This document shows, piece by piece, positions 37,081-49,120 of a stretch of 64,000 bases of DNA. The notes below the pieces were generated by a model. The model saw nothing but the letters and a program-made list of their open reading frames with translations. It was not told where the DNA came from and searched no databases. Source of the stretch: Desulfoferula mesophila (lineage in GTDB: Bacteria > Desulfobacterota > Desulfarculia > Desulfarculales > Desulfarculaceae); the NCBI RefSeq assembly GCF_037076455.1, contig NZ_AP028679.1, positions 2,495,501 to 2,559,500 on the forward strand. The letters are read 5' to 3'. How positions within the stretch are numbered: the first letter of the stretch is position 1; each line of letters starts with the position of its first letter. The translations under genes and the position numbers were made by a program.

Positions 37081-37102
37081 TACCTTGGAGGAGGCGGTAA
37101 CA

Positions 37103-38563
37103 ATGGCCAGAAAACCCACAAGCCCCCTGGCGGAGCCTACTAACCGGCTCACCGGATTATTGCTTGTGGGGATTTTGCTCATGATCATGGCGGTAATCGC
37201 CATCACCACCGCCCGGCGCATGCAAAGCACCGGCCAGCTGATGCGCCACTCCCTGGCCACCCAGGGCGAATTGGTCATCAAATCCCTGGAAGGGGCCACC
37301 CGTTTCGGCATGCGCCACCACATGTGGGGCTCGCTCAGGATGCAGTCCCTGGTGGAAGAGATGCTGCGTCTTCCTTCCTTGGCCTCCCTGGTGGTCATGG
37401 GGCCGCAGGGAGAAGTGCTGGCCGCCGGGGTGGCCGCCGGCGGAGTGGACGATGTGCCGGGCAAGGCCCTCACCGGGCTTTCCCCGGAGGTGCAACAAGC
37501 CGTGGACAAGCGGCAGCCGGTCATCCTGTTCCTGGGCAAGGAGTTGGTGGTGGGCCGCCCCTTCGAACCCCTGGCCGACTTCCAGCGTCAAGGGCGCTCC
37601 CTGCCCCCCTGGGCCAATTCCATGGACGACCACATGCGCCAAATGATGGGGCAGCCCCGGGGCGCCGGACGGGCAGGAGGACCGGGAGGCCCTCCCCCCA
37701 AGCCGGGTTATGTGCTGGTGCGCCTTTCCACCGAATCCATTCGCGTGGCCCAGGGCCGCGATCTGACCAGTTCCCTGCTTCTGGCCGCCGTGGTGTTTTT
37801 CTCCGCCGCCGCCCTGGCCGCGGCCATGTTCTTCTACACCAGACGGCGCCAGAGCGAACTGGAGCGCCTGCGCGAGGAGGTGGCCGAGAACCAACACCTG
37901 GCGGCGGTGGGCCGTCTGGCCGGTTCGGTGGCCCACGAGGTGCGCAATCCCCTCTCCGCCCTGCGCGGGCTGGTGCAATACCTGGCCAAGGGCCATGAGC
38001 CGGGCACCCGTTCCTATCAATGCGCCGAAACCGCGGTGTCGGAGGTGGACCGCCTGGAGCGGGTCGTCTCCGGTCTGTTGGATTACACCCGTCCCCGCTC
38101 GCCCCGCCTTATCCCCCTGGATCTGCAAGAGAGCATCGCGGGCACCCTGCGTCTGCTGGCCGACGAGCCCCGCTCCCAGGGGGTGGAGGTCATCAGCCGC
38201 CTGGAGCCGAACCTGCCCCTGGTACAGGCCGACCCGGACCAGGTGCGGCAGATTCTGATGAACCTGATCATCAACGCCTTGGAAGCCAACAACGGCAAGG
38301 GCTCGGTGGTCGTCTCCGCGCTAAGCCTGGGAGACCAGGTTAAAGTTGAAGTACAGGACCAGGGCGAGGGTATCCCGCCCGGCAAGTCCGAGGAAATCTT
38401 CGATCCCTTTTTCAGCACCAAGGAAAGGGGCACCGGGTTGGGTCTGGCCATTGCCCGCCGCCTGGCCCGGGGCATGGGCGGGCAGTTGACCGCCGCCTCT
38501 CTTGAGTGGCAAAAAGGTTCCAAGTTCACTCTCACTCTCACGGCAGAAGAGGCCAAGGCATGA
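37103..38563 (+). CDS. Membrane sensor histidine kinase, ZraS-like
   Basis: A 486-aa inner-membrane kinase: TM1 about 17-36, periplasmic sensor domain about 37-223 with a Gly/Pro/Arg-rich segment near 185-202, TM2 about 224-245, H-box with His278 (A-H-E-V-R-N-P), and the HATPase domain (N-L-I-I-N-A-L-E-A-N, D-Q-G-E-G-I-P, G-T-G-L-G-L-A). ATG 37103 has GGAGGAGG upstream. Stop and start overlap with the regulator gene (ATGA). It probably senses envelope metal or protein stress together with the ZraP-like protein. Confidence 0.92.
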   Translation: MARKPTSPLAEPTNRLTGLLLVGILLMIMAVIAITTARRMQSTGQLMRHSLATQGELVIKSLEGATRFGMRHHMWGSLRMQSLVEEMLRLPSLASLVVMGPQGEVLAAGVAAGGVDDVPGKALTGLSPEVQQAVDKRQPVILFLGKELVVGRPFEPLADFQRQGRSLPPWANSMDDHMRQMMGQPRGAGRAGGPGGPPPKPGYVLVRLSTESIRVAQGRDLTSSLLLAAVVFFSAAALAAAMFFYTRRRQSELERLREEVAENQHLAAVGRLAGSVAHEVRNPLSALRGLVQYLAKGHEPGTRSYQCAETAVSEVDRLERVVSGLLDYTRPRSPRLIPLDLQESIAGTLRLLADEPRSQGVEVISRLEPNLPLVQADPDQVRQILMNLIINALEANNGKGSVVVSALSLGDQVKVEVQDQGEGIPPGKSEEIFDPFFSTKERGTGLGLAIARRLARGMGGQLTAASLEWQKGSKFTLTLTAEEAKA

Positions 38564-39918
38564 GCAAACGTTCCAGCATCCTGGTCGTGGACGACGAGGC
38601 GGCCCACCGTCTGATGCTTACCGCCCACCTGGAAGAGGCGGGCTACAACGTTCTGGAAGCTCCGGACGGCGAAGCCGCGGTTGGCCAGGTGGAGAAGGCC
38701 CGCGTGGACCTGGTGATCATGGACCTGGTCATGCCGCGCATCGACGGCATGGAGGCGCTCAAGCGCATCAAGTCCAGCCATCCCGATCTGCCGGTGATGA
38801 TGATGACCGCCTACGGCTCCATAGACAACGCGGTCAAGGCCCTCAAGTTGGGGGCGGCGGACTACATCACCAAGCCCCTGGACGTGGACGAGGTGCTCAT
38901 CAAGATCGAGCGCCAACTCAAGGCCGCCAACCTGGCGCGGCGGGTGGCCTCCCAGGCCGAGCGCCTGGGCGAGCGCTTCGACTTTTCAGCCATGGTGGGC
39001 GAGAGCCCGCCCATGCGCCGCCTCAAGGAGACCATGGCCCTGGTGGCCCCCAGCCAGGCCACGGTGCTCATCACCGGCGAAAGCGGCACCGGCAAGGAAG
39101 TGGCGGCCCAAATACTGCACCAGAACTCCCCCCGCGCCGATGGACCGCTCATCAAGGTGAACTGCGCCGCCCTGCCCGAGAACCTTTTGGAGAGCGAACT
39201 GTTCGGCCACGAAAAGGGCTCCTTCACCGGAGCCACCAGCCGGCGGGAGGGGCGCCTGTCCGCCGCCGACGGAGGCACCTTGTTCCTGGACGAGGTGGGC
39301 GAGATGACCCCGGCCCTGCAAGCCAAGCTGCTCCGGGCCCTGCAAGAAGGCGAGTACTCCCCGGTGGGCAGCGACCGCACCTACCACGCCGACGTGCGGG
39401 TGATCGCGGCCACCAACCGGAACCTGGCCGCCGCCGTGTCCGAGGGGGAATTCCGCGAAGACCTCTACTACCGTCTCAACGTGGTGAACCTGGCCATGCC
39501 CCCTCTGCGCGACCGGGGGGATGACGTGCTTTTGCTGGCCGAAATCTTCCTGCGCCGTTTTGCTCGGGACAACAACCGGGAGCTGAAGGGCTTCAGCCCC
39601 GAGGCCCGTACCCAGTTGATGAGCTACGCCTGGCCGGGCAACGTGCGCGAACTCATCAACGCGGTGGAGCGCTCGGTTATCCTGGCCCAGGACCAGACCA
39701 TCGGGGTGGGCGAGTTGCTCCTGGGCATGGCCAGCCCCCGCTCGCAAGACGATTCGGCCTTGCACGCGGGCATGACCATTCGCGAGGCGGAACGCATTCT
39801 CATCGAAAAGACCCTGGAAGCCACCGAGGGCAACCGCACCCGGGCGGCCGACATGTTGGGTATCACCCGCAAGACCCTGCAAAACAAAATTAAGGAATTT
39901 GGCCTGCCGCCGGCGTAA
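38560..39918 (+). CDS. Sigma-54-dependent response regulator, ZraR-like
   Basis: A 452-aa NtrC-type activator: receiver domain with phospho-Asp55 and Lys105, AAA+ domain with Walker A G-E-S-G-T-G-K-E near residue 170, the sigma-54 contact loop written G-S-F-T-G-A (usual form G-A-F-T-G-A), and a Fis-type helix-turn-helix at the end (A-A-D-M-L-G-I-T-R-K-T-L). Phosphorylation by the adjacent kinase should drive the sigma-54 promoter at 36436. Confidence 0.94.
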   Translation: MSKRSSILVVDDEAAHRLMLTAHLEEAGYNVLEAPDGEAAVGQVEKARVDLVIMDLVMPRIDGMEALKRIKSSHPDLPVMMMTAYGSIDNAVKALKLGAADYITKPLDVDEVLIKIERQLKAANLARRVASQAERLGERFDFSAMVGESPPMRRLKETMALVAPSQATVLITGESGTGKEVAAQILHQNSPRADGPLIKVNCAALPENLLESELFGHEKGSFTGATSRREGRLSAADGGTLFLDEVGEMTPALQAKLLRALQEGEYSPVGSDRTYHADVRVIAATNRNLAAAVSEGEFREDLYYRLNVVNLAMPPLRDRGDDVLLLAEIFLRRFARDNNRELKGFSPEARTQLMSYAWPGNVRELINAVERSVILAQDQTIGVGELLLGMASPRSQDDSALHAGMTIREAERILIEKTLEATEGNRTRAADMLGITRKTLQNKIKEFGLPPA

Positions 39919-43149: not shown

Positions 43150-43178
43150 TTGTGTCGAATTCCGGTCAGTGTTAAGAT
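43150..43178 (+). promoter_or_regulatory. Candidate sigma-70 promoter of the orphan activator gene
   Basis: TTGTGT (43150-43155), a 17-base spacer and TAAGAT (43173-43178), about 90 bases before the start codon. Confidence 0.5.
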
Positions 43179-43269: not shown

Positions 43270-44712
43270 TTGTCCGACGCGCCACTGCCCAGGGTTAAAC
43301 CTCACGCCAGAGTCCTGGTGGTGGAGGATGACGCCGACTCCTCCCTGCTTTTTGCCGCCCTCATGGAGTCCGAGGGCCACGAGGCGGTCAAGGCGGACAG
43401 CGGCGAGGAGGCCCTGGAGCTTCTGGCTCAGGACAGCGATTTCGACCTGGTGCTCCTGGACCTGGTGCTGCCCGGCGTGGGCGGCTGGGAGGTGCTGGAG
43501 CGCATCAAGACCGACGGCAAGCTGCGTTACGTGCCGGTGGTGGTGCTCTCGGCCCTGGACGACAAGGCCACCACCATCAAGGCCCTGGAGTTGGGGGCCG
43601 AGGACTTCCTGAGCAAGCCGGTGGACGTGGAGCGCATGCTCTCCCGGGTGCGGGTGATGCTCCGCATCCGCAGCCTGTATGAGGATCTCATCCACGAGCG
43701 CTCCGGCCGCCAGCACGCCCAGCGTAGCCTGGAGATGCGCCGCTATTTCGGCCAGGTCATGGGCGGCTCGTCCCAGGTGCAGCAGCTGGCCGACGTGCTG
43801 GAAAACGTGGTGGACACCGACGCCACGGTGCTCCTGGAGGGCGAGAGCGGCACCGGCAAGGGCCTGCTGGCTGAATCGGTACACCGCTTCTCCCGGCGCA
43901 GCCAAGGCCCCATGGTGGTGGTCAACTGCTCCGCCTACCCCGAGACCCTGCTGTCATCCGAGCTCTTCGGCCACGAAAAAGGCGCCTTTACCGGAGCCAT
44001 CCGCCGCAAGCCGGGGCGCTTCGAGCTGGCCCACGGGGGAACCATCTTTTTGGACGAGATCGCCGAGATCAGCCCCCTGACCCAGCTCACCCTGCTGCGG
44101 GTCATCCAGGACCACCAGTTCGAGCGGGTGGGCGGCGAAAAGACCCTCACCGTGGACGTGCGGGTGTTGGCCGCCACCAACAAGCCCCTGGCGGGCATGG
44201 TGGAAAAGGGCCTTTTCCGCGAAGACCTGTTCTACCGCCTCAACGTGGTGCGCCTGGAAGTGCCCTCCCTGCGCACGCGTCCCGAGGACATCCCCTTTCT
44301 AGCCAACAGCTTCTTGAACTCCCAAGCCGAAAAGCTGGGCAAGGCCATCTACGGCTTCGAACGGGAGGCCCTGACCCGGCTCATGTCCTATGGTTGGCCG
44401 GGCAACGTGCGCGAGCTAAAAAACGTGGTGGAGCACGCCGCCCTCATGTGCCGCGAAGACGTGATCTGCCTGGCCAACCTGCCCGCGCGCCTGGCGGATG
44501 ACCAGGCCACGGGGGCCACGGGCCTAGCGGCGGCCCCGGTGGGGCGGCTGTGGGACAACGAGCGGGAGATCATCGCCCACACCCTGGAGCGGGTGAATTG
44601 GAACAAGTACCGGGCGGCGCAGGTTTTGGGCATCGCCCGCTCCACCCTCTACGGCAAGATTAAAAAGCACGGCCTCACCCCCCCGGCGGGGAGCGAGGCC
44701 TCGCAGGACTAG
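43270..44712 (+). CDS. Orphan sigma-54-dependent response regulator
   Basis: A 480-aa NtrC-family activator: receiver with phospho-Asp64 (V-L-L-D-L-V-L-P-G), AAA+ domain with G-E-S-G-T-G-K-G and a perfect G-A-F-T-G-A loop, and a Fis-type DNA-binding end (A-A-Q-V-L-G-I-A-R-S-T-L). The start is TTG at 43270 with AGGAGG six bases upstream. No kinase gene is adjacent. It might drive the sigma-54 promoter at 48599, but nothing in the sequence proves that pairing. Confidence 0.93.
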   Translation: MSDAPLPRVKPHARVLVVEDDADSSLLFAALMESEGHEAVKADSGEEALELLAQDSDFDLVLLDLVLPGVGGWEVLERIKTDGKLRYVPVVVLSALDDKATTIKALELGAEDFLSKPVDVERMLSRVRVMLRIRSLYEDLIHERSGRQHAQRSLEMRRYFGQVMGGSSQVQQLADVLENVVDTDATVLLEGESGTGKGLLAESVHRFSRRSQGPMVVVNCSAYPETLLSSELFGHEKGAFTGAIRRKPGRFELAHGGTIFLDEIAEISPLTQLTLLRVIQDHQFERVGGEKTLTVDVRVLAATNKPLAGMVEKGLFREDLFYRLNVVRLEVPSLRTRPEDIPFLANSFLNSQAEKLGKAIYGFEREALTRLMSYGWPGNVRELKNVVEHAALMCREDVICLANLPARLADDQATGATGLAAAPVGRLWDNEREIIAHTLERVNWNKYRAAQVLGIARSTLYGKIKKHGLTPPAGSEASQD

Positions 44713-45349: not shown

Positions 45350-47755
45350 TTATTTGTCGTCCTTGTTGGCCATATCCTTGATCGCCTGGCGCATGGCCTC
45401 CAGCTGCCGCTCGGCCAGGTAGTTCACCGAGCCTTCGGGGTAGGCATCGTCCTCGCCGCGCTCCCCGGCGGGCAGGCCGGTGAACAGCTCCAGGGCCTGG
45501 TCCATGGCGTCCACCGCGTAGACCGCGAACTTGCCCTCGGCCACCGCGGCCACCACGTCCGGGTGCAGCATGAGGTTTTTAAGGTTGGCGGTGGGGATCA
45601 CCACCCCCTGCTTGCCGGTGAGGCCCCGCTCTTGGCACAGGCGGAAGAAGCCCTCGATCTTGAGATTCACCCCGCCGATGGCCTGGGCCCGGCCATGCTG
45701 GTCCATGCTGCCGGTGATGGCCAGGTCTTGGCGCAGGGGCACCTGGGCCAGCTCGGAGAGCAGGGTTATCACCTCGGCCAGAGAGGCGGAGTCGCCGTCC
45801 ACCATGCCGTAGCTCTGCTCGAACACCAGGCTGGCCTTGAGGGCCAGCGGCGCCCGGCGCGCGAAGCGCCTTTGCAAGAAGCCGCCGATGATCAGCACCC
45901 CCTTGTTGTGGAAGGGGCCGGAGAGATCGGCCTCGCGGTCGATGTTGGTCAGCCCCTCCTTGCCCAGGCCCACGCTGGCCGAGATGCGGCTGGGCTTGCC
46001 AAAGGCGTAGTCGCCCAGGTCGTAGACCGCCAGGCCGTTGATCTGACCCTGGGCCGCTCCGTCGGTGGCGATGTTGATGAAGCCCCGGGTGGTGGCCTCG
46101 CGCAGGTGCTCCTCCATCATGGCCCCGCGCCGCCGGCGCCCGGCGATGGCCGTGGTCACGTCCTCGGCGGTTATGTTTTCCCGCCCCGCCTGCCCCGCGT
46201 GGAAGTTGCTCTCCTTGACCAGATCCTCCAGGTCGGCCAGGCGCAGGGTCAGGTGCTCGCTGTCGCCGGACATCTCCGCCGCCCGCTCGATGAGCCGGGC
46301 CACGGCGCTCCGGTGCAGGGGCCTCAGCTCCTCCCGGCGGCTGACGCGGCACAGGTGGTTGATGAACTCGCCCACCTCCGCCTCGCCCCAGTCCATGTAT
46401 TCGCTCATCTGGGCCCGCACCTTGAACAGCTTGGGGAACTGCTGGTCGTGCACGTAGAGCAGGTGATAGAGCTCGCTGTCGCCCACCAGCACCACCTTGA
46501 GGTTCAAGGGAATGGGCTCGGGCCGCAGGGTGCGGGTGATCATGTAGCCCAGTTGCTCCATGACGTCTTCCATCTTCACCTTGCGGTCCCTGAGCGCCCG
46601 TTTGAGCCCCTCCCAGGGCAGCCAGTAGCGCAGCAAGTCCATGACCGGCAGCACCAGGTAGCCGCCGTTGGCCCGGTGCAGGGCCCCGGGCTTGAGCAGG
46701 GTGAAGTCGGTGAGCAAGGCGCCGAACTGGGCCTGGCGCTCGATGCGGCCAAAGAGGTTGGGATAGGTGGGGTTGTGCTCCACCACCACCGGCGCGCCCT
46801 GGGCGGCCGAGTTGTCCACGAACACGTTCACCTGGTACTCGCGGAAGTCCGGCTCCTCGGTGGGCACCGGGAAGGGCATCGGCGACTTTTCCTTTTGTTT
46901 GAAGTGCTCGTAGTTGGTCACCAGATCCTGCTGCACCTGGTCCAGGTAATCCAGTACCGGCTGCTGCCCGGCGTACTCCTCGTGCATGTCGGAGAGCATG
47001 TGGCCCACCGCCTGGAGCACCAGATCCTTGTTGAGATTGTTCAGGGCCTCTTGCAGCTCTTTTTCCTGGGCGTTAACCGCGCGCAGGGCCTCGGTCACCT
47101 TGGCCTGGATCACGTCGCTTTTTTGGCGCAGATCCTCGCGCTGCTCTTCGCTCATATCCCGCAGGGCGGCGTCGGGCAGGGGTTCGCCGTCCTCGCCGGC
47201 CGGGGCCACCATGATCCCGGTGGGCTCGAACTTGAGCACGTAGCCCTGCTCCCTGGCCTGGGAATCGAGCTGGGAGAATATGTCGCTGCGCGCGCGCTTG
47301 AACTCGTTGGTGAGGTTGTCCTTGCGCCGGGTGTAGTCCTCCCCCTCGAACAGCTCGGGGATGGCCGCCTTCATGTTGTCCAAGAGCTTGTTCATCTGCT
47401 TGGCCAAGTGGCGGCCCCCGCCCGGAGGCAGGCTCAGGGCCTTGGGCTCGTCGGGTTCTTGGAAGTTATGCACGTAGACCCAGTCCGGCGGCGGGGGCTG
47501 CTCGGCGGCCAGACGGTTTAGGAAAGTCGTTACCAGGTGGGTCCGGCCGGTACGCTGGGTACCGGCCACATAGACGTGGAAATCCATGTCCTGCATGGCC
47601 AGGCCGAAGCTCAAGGCCTCCTTGGCCCGGGCTTGGCCCACCACGGAGTCGAGGCACTCCGGGGCTTGATCGGTGGTTTCAAAGGGAACCAGGGCGGGAT
47701 CGAAAACCCGCCGCAGTTGGGCGACGTCCAGGGGTGGAGGGGAAGATGAAGGCAT
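45350..47755 (-). CDS. Lon-family ATP-dependent protease (AAA_32, LonB-like)
   Basis: An 801-aa Lon-related protein. The N-terminal half has a P-loop-like A-G-T-Q-R-T-G-R-T near residue 64 (looser than a standard G-x4-G-K-T) and a long helical insert (about 130-290). The LonB-type AAA core lies in the middle, and the C-terminal protease domain carries the Ser in G-D-S-A-S near 658 and the Lys in V-N-L-K-I-E-G-F near 701. It degrades misfolded or regulatory proteins in the cytoplasm. GGGAG precedes the ATG. Confidence 0.92.
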   Translation of the reverse strand: MPSSSPPPLDVAQLRRVFDPALVPFETTDQAPECLDSVVGQARAKEALSFGLAMQDMDFHVYVAGTQRTGRTHLVTTFLNRLAAEQPPPPDWVYVHNFQEPDEPKALSLPPGGGRHLAKQMNKLLDNMKAAIPELFEGEDYTRRKDNLTNEFKRARSDIFSQLDSQAREQGYVLKFEPTGIMVAPAGEDGEPLPDAALRDMSEEQREDLRQKSDVIQAKVTEALRAVNAQEKELQEALNNLNKDLVLQAVGHMLSDMHEEYAGQQPVLDYLDQVQQDLVTNYEHFKQKEKSPMPFPVPTEEPDFREYQVNVFVDNSAAQGAPVVVEHNPTYPNLFGRIERQAQFGALLTDFTLLKPGALHRANGGYLVLPVMDLLRYWLPWEGLKRALRDRKVKMEDVMEQLGYMITRTLRPEPIPLNLKVVLVGDSELYHLLYVHDQQFPKLFKVRAQMSEYMDWGEAEVGEFINHLCRVSRREELRPLHRSAVARLIERAAEMSGDSEHLTLRLADLEDLVKESNFHAGQAGRENITAEDVTTAIAGRRRRGAMMEEHLREATTRGFINIATDGAAQGQINGLAVYDLGDYAFGKPSRISASVGLGKEGLTNIDREADLSGPFHNKGVLIIGGFLQRRFARRAPLALKASLVFEQSYGMVDGDSASLAEVITLLSELAQVPLRQDLAITGSMDQHGRAQAIGGVNLKIEGFFRLCQERGLTGKQGVVIPTANLKNLMLHPDVVAAVAEGKFAVYAVDAMDQALELFTGLPAGERGEDDAYPEGSVNYLAERQLEAMRQAIKDMANKDDK

Positions 47756-47854: not shown

Positions 47855-48223
47855 TCAGCAGTTGCCGCCGGCGTGTTGCCACCAGGCGTTGTTGGCCATG
47901 TCCCGCAGGCGGCAGACCAGGTCGCTGAGGTCGGAGGACTTGTCCAGTACCGAGAGACCCTCGATGCAGGGAGACATACGGGGCCGCCCCAACAGGACCA
48001 CGCCGCCGTCGTGCACCTGGCGCAGGTGCTCCATCCAGCTTTCCAGGCGGCCCCCCACCAGGTCCAGGTTGGTCACCAAAACATGGGCCGGAGCGCCCTT
48101 GAGGCTGTGCATGGCGCGCCTTAGATCGGAGCGCACCACCACCCTGAAACCGGCTTCCTCCAACTCTTCGCGATACAAACGGGCCAGGCTGGGGTCGCTC
48201 TCGACGACCATGATTTGCAGCAT
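47855..48223 (-). CDS. Degenerate receiver-domain protein
   Basis: A 122-aa stand-alone CheY-like domain. It keeps the acidic start (V-E-S-D-P-S) and a Lys in D-K-S-S-D near the end, but at the phospho-acceptor strand it reads V-T-N-L-D-L, placing Asn where Asp is expected. It may be a pseudo-receiver that works without phosphorylation. ATG 48223 has GAGGAG upstream. No partner kinase is next to it. Confidence 0.75.
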   Translation of the reverse strand: MLQIMVVESDPSLARLYREELEEAGFRVVVRSDLRRAMHSLKGAPAHVLVTNLDLVGGRLESWMEHLRQVHDGGVVLLGRPRMSPCIEGLSVLDKSSDLSDLVCRLRDMANNAWWQHAGGNC

Positions 48224-48352
48224 GGCTTCTCCTCGCAAGGTTCGAAGAAAAATTAGATTGGTTGGGAATTCTAGCCTTGTTTATATGCAAAAAAGAGACC
48301 ATTGAGGCAGGTAAGCTTATCGGGGGGTTAGGTTGGGTGCCGAACCGGCTAG

Positions 48353-48368
48353 TGTCCGATTTTAGACA
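48353..48368 (+). promoter_or_regulatory. Enhancer-like repeat, copy 1 (distal)
   Basis: TGTCCGATTTTAGACA, a TGTC-N8-GACA inverted repeat. It differs by one base from copy 2, and its centre lies 96 bases upstream of copy 2. Confidence 0.7.
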
Positions 48369-48448
48369 GGGTAGTATGGACGCAGTCCCGACGGTCGCGT
48401 TTGGCCTCGAATTGGGGCCAAAAAGCCTACTGTATCAATTGCGACATA

Positions 48449-48464
48449 TGTCCGGTTTTAGACA
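48449..48464 (+). promoter_or_regulatory. Enhancer-like repeat, copy 2 (proximal)
   Basis: TGTCCGGTTTTAGACA, about 155 bases upstream of the -12 element, a normal distance for binding of a sigma-54 activator. The form TGT-N10-ACA is also the spacing of NifA sites, but the N10 here is nearly identical in both copies and specific. Confidence 0.7.
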
Positions 48465-48598
48465 TATTTTTTAGAGCATTTCAATCGGTTTTCCCCTCTT
48501 CTCAAAATCGCCCTCAGCGGCGGTGCAGTCTTATTTATCGCTATTATTCAATTAGTTATCCGCCACAGCCAAGCCCAGGGCCGCCTCCGGTCGACCTG

Positions 48599-48614
48599 TG
48601 GCACATTAATTGCT
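48599..48614 (+). promoter_or_regulatory. Sigma-54 promoter of the small Cys protein gene
   Basis: TGGCAC-ATTAA-TTGCT is a perfect match to the -24/-12 consensus. Expected transcription start is near 48626, with ATG at 48662. Confidence 0.88.
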
Positions 48615-48661
48615 TAATCGAGAGGCAATACTATTACTCTTGACCGGCAAGGGGGATCCTA

Positions 48662-48952
48662 ATGAGGCGTTTTAAGAGGAGTCGCAAGCAGCAGTTTATT
48701 CCCAACATCAACACCGAAGAGTGGCTGGCTAACAACCCCAATGCAATGATTCAGTGCCCCAGCCAACCCGGTGGATTGAAGCTTACCCGCGAATCCTGCG
48801 CCAAACGCTACATGACTGCCAACGAACCCCGCTGGGCCAACATAGGAGCCGAACCCTTCCACATCTTTGTGTTCAAAATGAATCTGGTGGCCTGCCGCAA
48901 GTGCGACGTAGGGGCCGGTTTCGCCAAGGAGTTGAAGGTCCAGGCAGCCTAA
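48662..48952 (+). CDS. Small Cys-containing protein of unknown function, sigma-54 controlled
   Basis: A 96-aa soluble protein with a basic N-terminus (R-R-F-K-R-S-R-K) and four Cys: C-P near residue 32, one near 47, and a C-R-K-C pair near 78-81. The pattern suggests a small zinc or iron site. I do not recognise a named family. It has its own sigma-54 promoter with two enhancer-like repeats and a strong terminator, so it is a separately regulated gene. Confidence 0.75.
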   Translation: MRRFKRSRKQQFIPNINTEEWLANNPNAMIQCPSQPGGLKLTRESCAKRYMTANEPRWANIGAEPFHIFVFKMNLVACRKCDVGAGFAKELKVQAA

Positions 48953-49038: not shown

Positions 49039-49120
49039 GTGTATTCGCCGGGTTGCCATGTGGCTCCGAGACCCTTAAAATGACTGGATTTGGGTCTGAA
49101 CCACAACCCCGGAGCAATTA

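Follow-up and report, generated by a model that had tools for sequence, protein, structure and literature searches.

The closest described system to the locus analysed here is the orp cluster of Desulfovibrio vulgaris, in which two divergent sigma-54 operons, orp1 and orp2, are encoded together with their activator, DVU2106; the cluster has palindromic activator sites, and IHF helps to bend the DNA (PMC3897727, PMC4641369). Activator motifs of D. vulgaris have TGT and ACA half-sites spaced by 9, 11 or 12 bp, and the regulons are small, comprising one to four operons with colocalised activator genes (PMC4641369). The upstream activator sequence (UAS) of NifA is TGT-N10-ACA (PMC7294313).

We have analysed a stretch of 64,000 nucleotides from Desulfoferula mesophila (the window, to which coordinates refer unless another locus is named), in which the intergenic region at 48238-48662 is, in our judgement, quite probably a divergent sigma-54 control region with an activator of its own, encoded at 43270. 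Like orp1/orp2, the locus would pair two divergently transcribed sigma-54 operons with an activator of their own, here predicted from the sequence. The genes are different, however, and whereas the orp activator is a one-component regulator encoded inside the cluster, the gene for the candidate here, an orphan response regulator, is some 5 kb distant, and the three sites that would be shared include a pair spaced by 18 bp. The sites resemble the NifA UAS in their half-sites, 10-bp spacing and placement at sigma-54 promoters, but the motif is stricter, has three copies in the genome, is not found at nifA-type genes and has a different candidate activator. With the D. vulgaris motifs they share the half-sites, the small regulon and the colocalised activator gene, although the spacing here is 10 bp and the target genes lie outside the functions listed for that organism (PMC4641369).

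Results

A sigma-54 promoter precedes the gene for a small four-cysteine protein

The rightward part of the locus consists of the following features.

48599-48614, forward strand: P_cys, sigma-54 promoter, TGGCACATTAATTGCT, at most one mismatch in 18/18 orthologs
48662-48952, forward strand: gene for a 96-aa protein with four invariant cysteines, C32, C46, C78 and C81
49007-49040, forward strand: intrinsic terminator after the 96-aa gene, hairpin plus T-run

The 96-aa open reading frame is real, with orthologs in 18 of 20 family genomes (the window genome counted), the others being 54-92% identical; Desulfocarbo indianensis and Dethiosulfatarculus sandiegensis are named relatives among public contigs. 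The invariant residues include W21, C32, P33, Q35, P36, G37, C46, R49, N74, C78, C81 and G84. More distant relatives are found in several other Desulfobacterota families, some genomes having three or four copies. When the protein was searched against Pfam, NCBIfam, PHROGs and the PDB no family match was returned, and we therefore rejected both a known small cysteine or zinc protein family and, there being no phage match, a phage origin. An AlphaFold2 model was moderately confident (mean pLDDT 81.6), and comparison of its fold with the PDB gave no match at E<=0.001. We conclude that the protein is, on its sequence, a member of an uncatalogued four-cysteine family that extends across Desulfobacterota; because of the four cysteines, our guess would be that it binds metal.

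Distant members of the family lie in varied gene contexts, the exceptions being an aconitase locus (L137) and three loci, all belonging to a single other family, that have sigma-54-type promoters. These three loci come from three genomes, in each of which the promoter lies upstream of the four-cysteine relative, and L137 is one of them. At L137 (6540-7178) the relative adjoins an aconitase gene and a 91-aa open reading frame, again with a sigma-54-type promoter upstream; the 91-aa product was read by eye as receiver-like and had no match in NCBIfam. In a relative with a genome of 3.66 Mb, a second, diverged four-cysteine copy at L039 (7857-8111) has neither a sigma-54 promoter nor sites.

An earlier note on this DNA had described a perfect TGGCAC-N5-TTGCT promoter upstream of the 96-aa gene, and it is indeed present, as TGGCACATTAATTGCT, 63 bp ahead of the start codon (ATG at 48662). 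Across the 18 ortholog upstream regions the element is perfect in 13 and has one mismatch in five, and it lies 50-81 bp before the start codon. The exact pattern TGGCAC-N5-TTGCW has just seven sites in the 4.48-Mb genome. No sigma-70-like site was seen upstream of the gene on the gene's strand. The aconitase gene that follows was considered as part of the same transcription unit and rejected, since a strong hairpin plus T-run lies within about 70 bp downstream of the stop codon in 14 of the 18 regions and a sigma-70-like site (49053-49081) precedes the aconitase gene; the 96-aa gene is thus probably monocistronic. A search of the region against Rfam found no known RNA element.

Predicted enhancer sites are conserved across the family

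Three predicted enhancer sites lie upstream of P_cys.

48353-48368, forward strand: UAS1, predicted enhancer site, TGTCCGATTTTAGACA, in 17/18 orthologs
48431-48446, forward strand: UAS2, predicted enhancer site, TGTATCAATTGCGACA, with a counterpart in 18/18 orthologs
48449-48464, forward strand: UAS3, predicted enhancer site, TGTCCGGTTTTAGACA, 18 bp from UAS2

UAS1 and UAS3 are the two nearly identical 16-base repeats that had been reported at 250 and 155 bases from the promoter; the sites themselves are real, and they lie 246 and 150 bp before the P_cys element. UAS2 had been overlooked. UAS2/3 form a TGT-N10-ACA pair with 18-bp spacing in all 18 ortholog upstream regions, and UAS1 is found 78-81 bp upstream of UAS2 in 17 of them. 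It can be seen in the alignment that the sites keep their fixed spacing while the flanking sequence has largely diverged. The full motif is TGTC-N8-GACA with an AT-rich centre.

The pattern TGTCNNNTTTTNGACA has exactly two matches in the 4.48-Mb genome, at UAS1 and UAS3, and its reversed control has none. With a covariance-type scan the 16-bp model R1 gave weak scores (E about 2), yet UAS1 and UAS3 ranked first genome-wide. For a cross-genus test the motif was trained on the eight members of the genus and applied to ten orthologs from other genera, each with 500 dinucleotide shuffles. The best site pair fell at the expected position in all ten regions, and none of the 500 shuffles reached its score in any of them. 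Absence of the repeats from orthologous upstream regions had been named as what would count against the earlier proposal; they are present instead. Palindromic sites that lie upstream of a promoter and are conserved in orthologs are what is expected of the regulon of an enhancer-binding protein, and the retention of both promoter and sites across the family strongly supports sigma-54 control with dedicated enhancers. Matches in a scan for IHF sites were scattered and not consistently placed, so that IHF sites in the control region are a possibility.

A divergent promoter faces receiver-like and Lon-like genes

On the opposite strand the control region carries a second sigma-54-type promoter, which the earlier note had missed.

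48286-48301, reverse strand: P_div, divergent sigma-54-type promoter, TGGTCTCTTTTTTGCA, with an intact GG-N10-GC core and, in the window genome, two mismatches to the consensus
47855-48226, reverse strand: gene for a receiver-like single-domain protein, Asn at the phospho-acceptor position
45350-47755, reverse strand: gene for a Lon-like protease with AAA_32, LonB_AAA-LID, LonC_helical and Lon_C domains

P_div is found at the matching position in 16 of the 17 relatives with enough sequence, and in ten of these it is perfect; it was not found in G008. Across relatives the minus-strand element lies 346-391 bp from the 96-aa start codon with GG and GC intact; the window genome and its close relatives have TGGTCT/C, with two mismatches. 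Both P_cys and the core of P_div have the -24 GG and -12 GC at the fixed spacing of a sigma-54 promoter (TGGCAC-N5-TTGCW). The UAS2/3 pair is roughly 140 bp away from each of the two promoters, and UAS1 is about 60 bp from P_div. P_div faces the conserved receiver-like gene and then the Lon-like gene, which are probably cotranscribed. That the enhancers serve a single protein, as had been suggested, is therefore not supported; because the conserved P_div faces these genes, the UAS enhancers are probably shared by both directions.

The likely phospho-acceptor of the receiver-like protein is Asn here, Asn or Ser in close relatives and Asp in most others. The AAA_32, LonC helical and Lon_C domains place the protease in the Lon/LonC type, and its DGDSAS and GGVNxK motifs presumably provide the Ser-Lys dyad. 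At the Walker A position the window protein reads GTQRTGRT where ten aligned relatives have GxxxTGKT, and this change from Lys to Arg was seen in the window genome alone.

An activator gene nearby has its own copy of the motif

The proposed regulator and a fourth site lie on the far side of the Lon-like gene.

43270-44712, forward strand: gene for an orphan enhancer-binding protein, the proposed regulator, with receiver, sigma-54 AAA+ domain containing GAFTGA, and Fis-type HTH
43153-43168, reverse strand: UAS4, predicted site, TGACCGGAATTCGACA, upstream of the 43270 activator gene

With its complete receiver, its AAA+ domain with GAFTGA and its Fis-type HTH, the 43270 protein has the make-up of a sigma-54-dependent response regulator. 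A genome-wide search with TGTCYGRWWTTMGACA at no more than one mismatch returned UAS1, UAS3 and UAS4 and no further site; UAS4 had been left out of motif building. UAS4 lies roughly 100 bp upstream of where the activator gene starts and adjoins a possible extended -10 element, TGTTAAGAT (43170-43178), which suggests autorepression. Its target is not certain because it sits between the activator gene and a divergent helicase gene. The site is kept in six congeners, the window genome included (L070-L075), and is restricted to this genus (g1), with no clear counterpart in G002, G003, G008, G009 or G010.

The genome encodes 43 sigma-54 activator domains. Thirty activator loci were scanned for the motif and the remaining ones afterwards; none of the 42 loci other than 43270 carries it, the best scoring 12.1 bits against at least 14.0 bits for the training sites. 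Each of the ten nearest family genomes that were searched contains an ortholog of the 43270 activator, and where contigs are long it shares a contig with the locus, at a distance of no more than 20 kb. G012 has neither the 96-aa gene nor a 43270 ortholog (best paralogs at most 44%). In G011 (86% complete) and G018 (71% complete) the 96-aa gene is present and a 43270 ortholog was not detected. The orphan activator had already been put forward as a candidate, and the proposal is supported by the copy of the rare motif that its gene has upstream and by its linkage to the locus. As the motif is found genome-wide only here and at 43270, the 43270 activator is the best-supported regulator of the locus, with binding predicted from the sites.

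Two further observations concern the surroundings of this gene. Directly before the 43270 ortholog, and nearly overlapping it, an open reading frame of about 60 codons for a multi-cysteine product (WTRCLHLxAGTCPEL...AC..C) is conserved in L072, L074-L078, L080 and L151 and is missing in the window genome. At 37085-39918 (forward strand), 3 kb before 43270, a putative histidine kinase gene precedes the gene for another sigma-54 response regulator.

Discussion

From these features we infer the following scheme. A kinase would switch on the orphan response regulator encoded at 43270, which would bind the predicted TGT-N10-ACA-type sites UAS1-3; DNA looping would then let the bound activator open sigma-54 polymerase at both P_cys and P_div. 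P_cys would give the 96-aa four-cysteine protein alone, ended by the terminator, and P_div the receiver-like protein followed by the Lon-like protease, while UAS4, at the activator's own promoter, would probably allow the activator to repress itself.

A potential alternative is that the enhancers act on the 96-aa gene alone, with P_div no more than a relic, or without activity in this genome, and with another promoter for the receiver-like and Lon-like genes. In keeping with this, P_div has two mismatches in the window genome and its close relatives, the phospho-acceptor Asp is replaced by Asn or Ser in the same clade, and the Walker A substitution occurs in the window genome. However, a promoter that is perfect in ten relatives, near-constant in position in 16 of 17 and still in possession of its invariant GG-N10-GC core in the window genome makes this decidedly unlikely, and we prefer enhancers that serve both directions.

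The regulator might also be a different one of the 43 activators, for example that at 38506-39918 paired with the kinase at 37085, with 43270 merely another target. This activator is 9 kb away and has the putative kinase gene adjacent to it, and a 43270 gene that was only a target would also account for UAS4, but the motif is absent near it and near every activator other than 43270, which moreover co-occurs with the locus and stays linked to it in long contigs, so that we give this explanation a slim chance. Binding of the sites by NifA, or by an activator of its type, which would tie the region to nitrogen status, is very improbable. The core of the sites is identical to the NifA consensus in the literature (PMC7294313) and the genome encodes two NifA-type proteins that score over the curated cut-off; the full motif is nevertheless far more specific than that consensus, and it is confined to this locus and the 43270 activator. 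We rejected NifA as the regulator in spite of the fitting core, because the motif is absent around both nifA-type genes. The 43270 activator accordingly remains our preferred regulator.

As to function, the likeliest role, of which the gene neighbourhood gives a faint hint, would be a response to protein-quality or metal/redox stress, in which the four-cysteine protein might bind metal and assist or tune the protease. A more specific version, which we think rather unlikely, would be an undescribed proteolytic response where the four-cysteine protein is a metal- or redox-sensing adaptor for the Lon-like protease, tuned by the receiver-like partner and placed under one dedicated sigma-54 activator.

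The system would be a further regulon of sigma-54 and an enhancer-binding protein, a kind already known. For a Desulfobacterota family that has been little studied, it provides a complete, testable sigma-54 unit (activator, motif, two promoters and targets), and through it an uncatalogued family of four-cysteine proteins is tied to a Lon-like protease. Owing to the rarity of the motif in this genome, activator and targets can be matched with a clarity that is unusual for orphan response regulators. For the host, a bacterium of the sulfate-reducing type, this would be a conserved switch that is apparently worked by one nearby activator.
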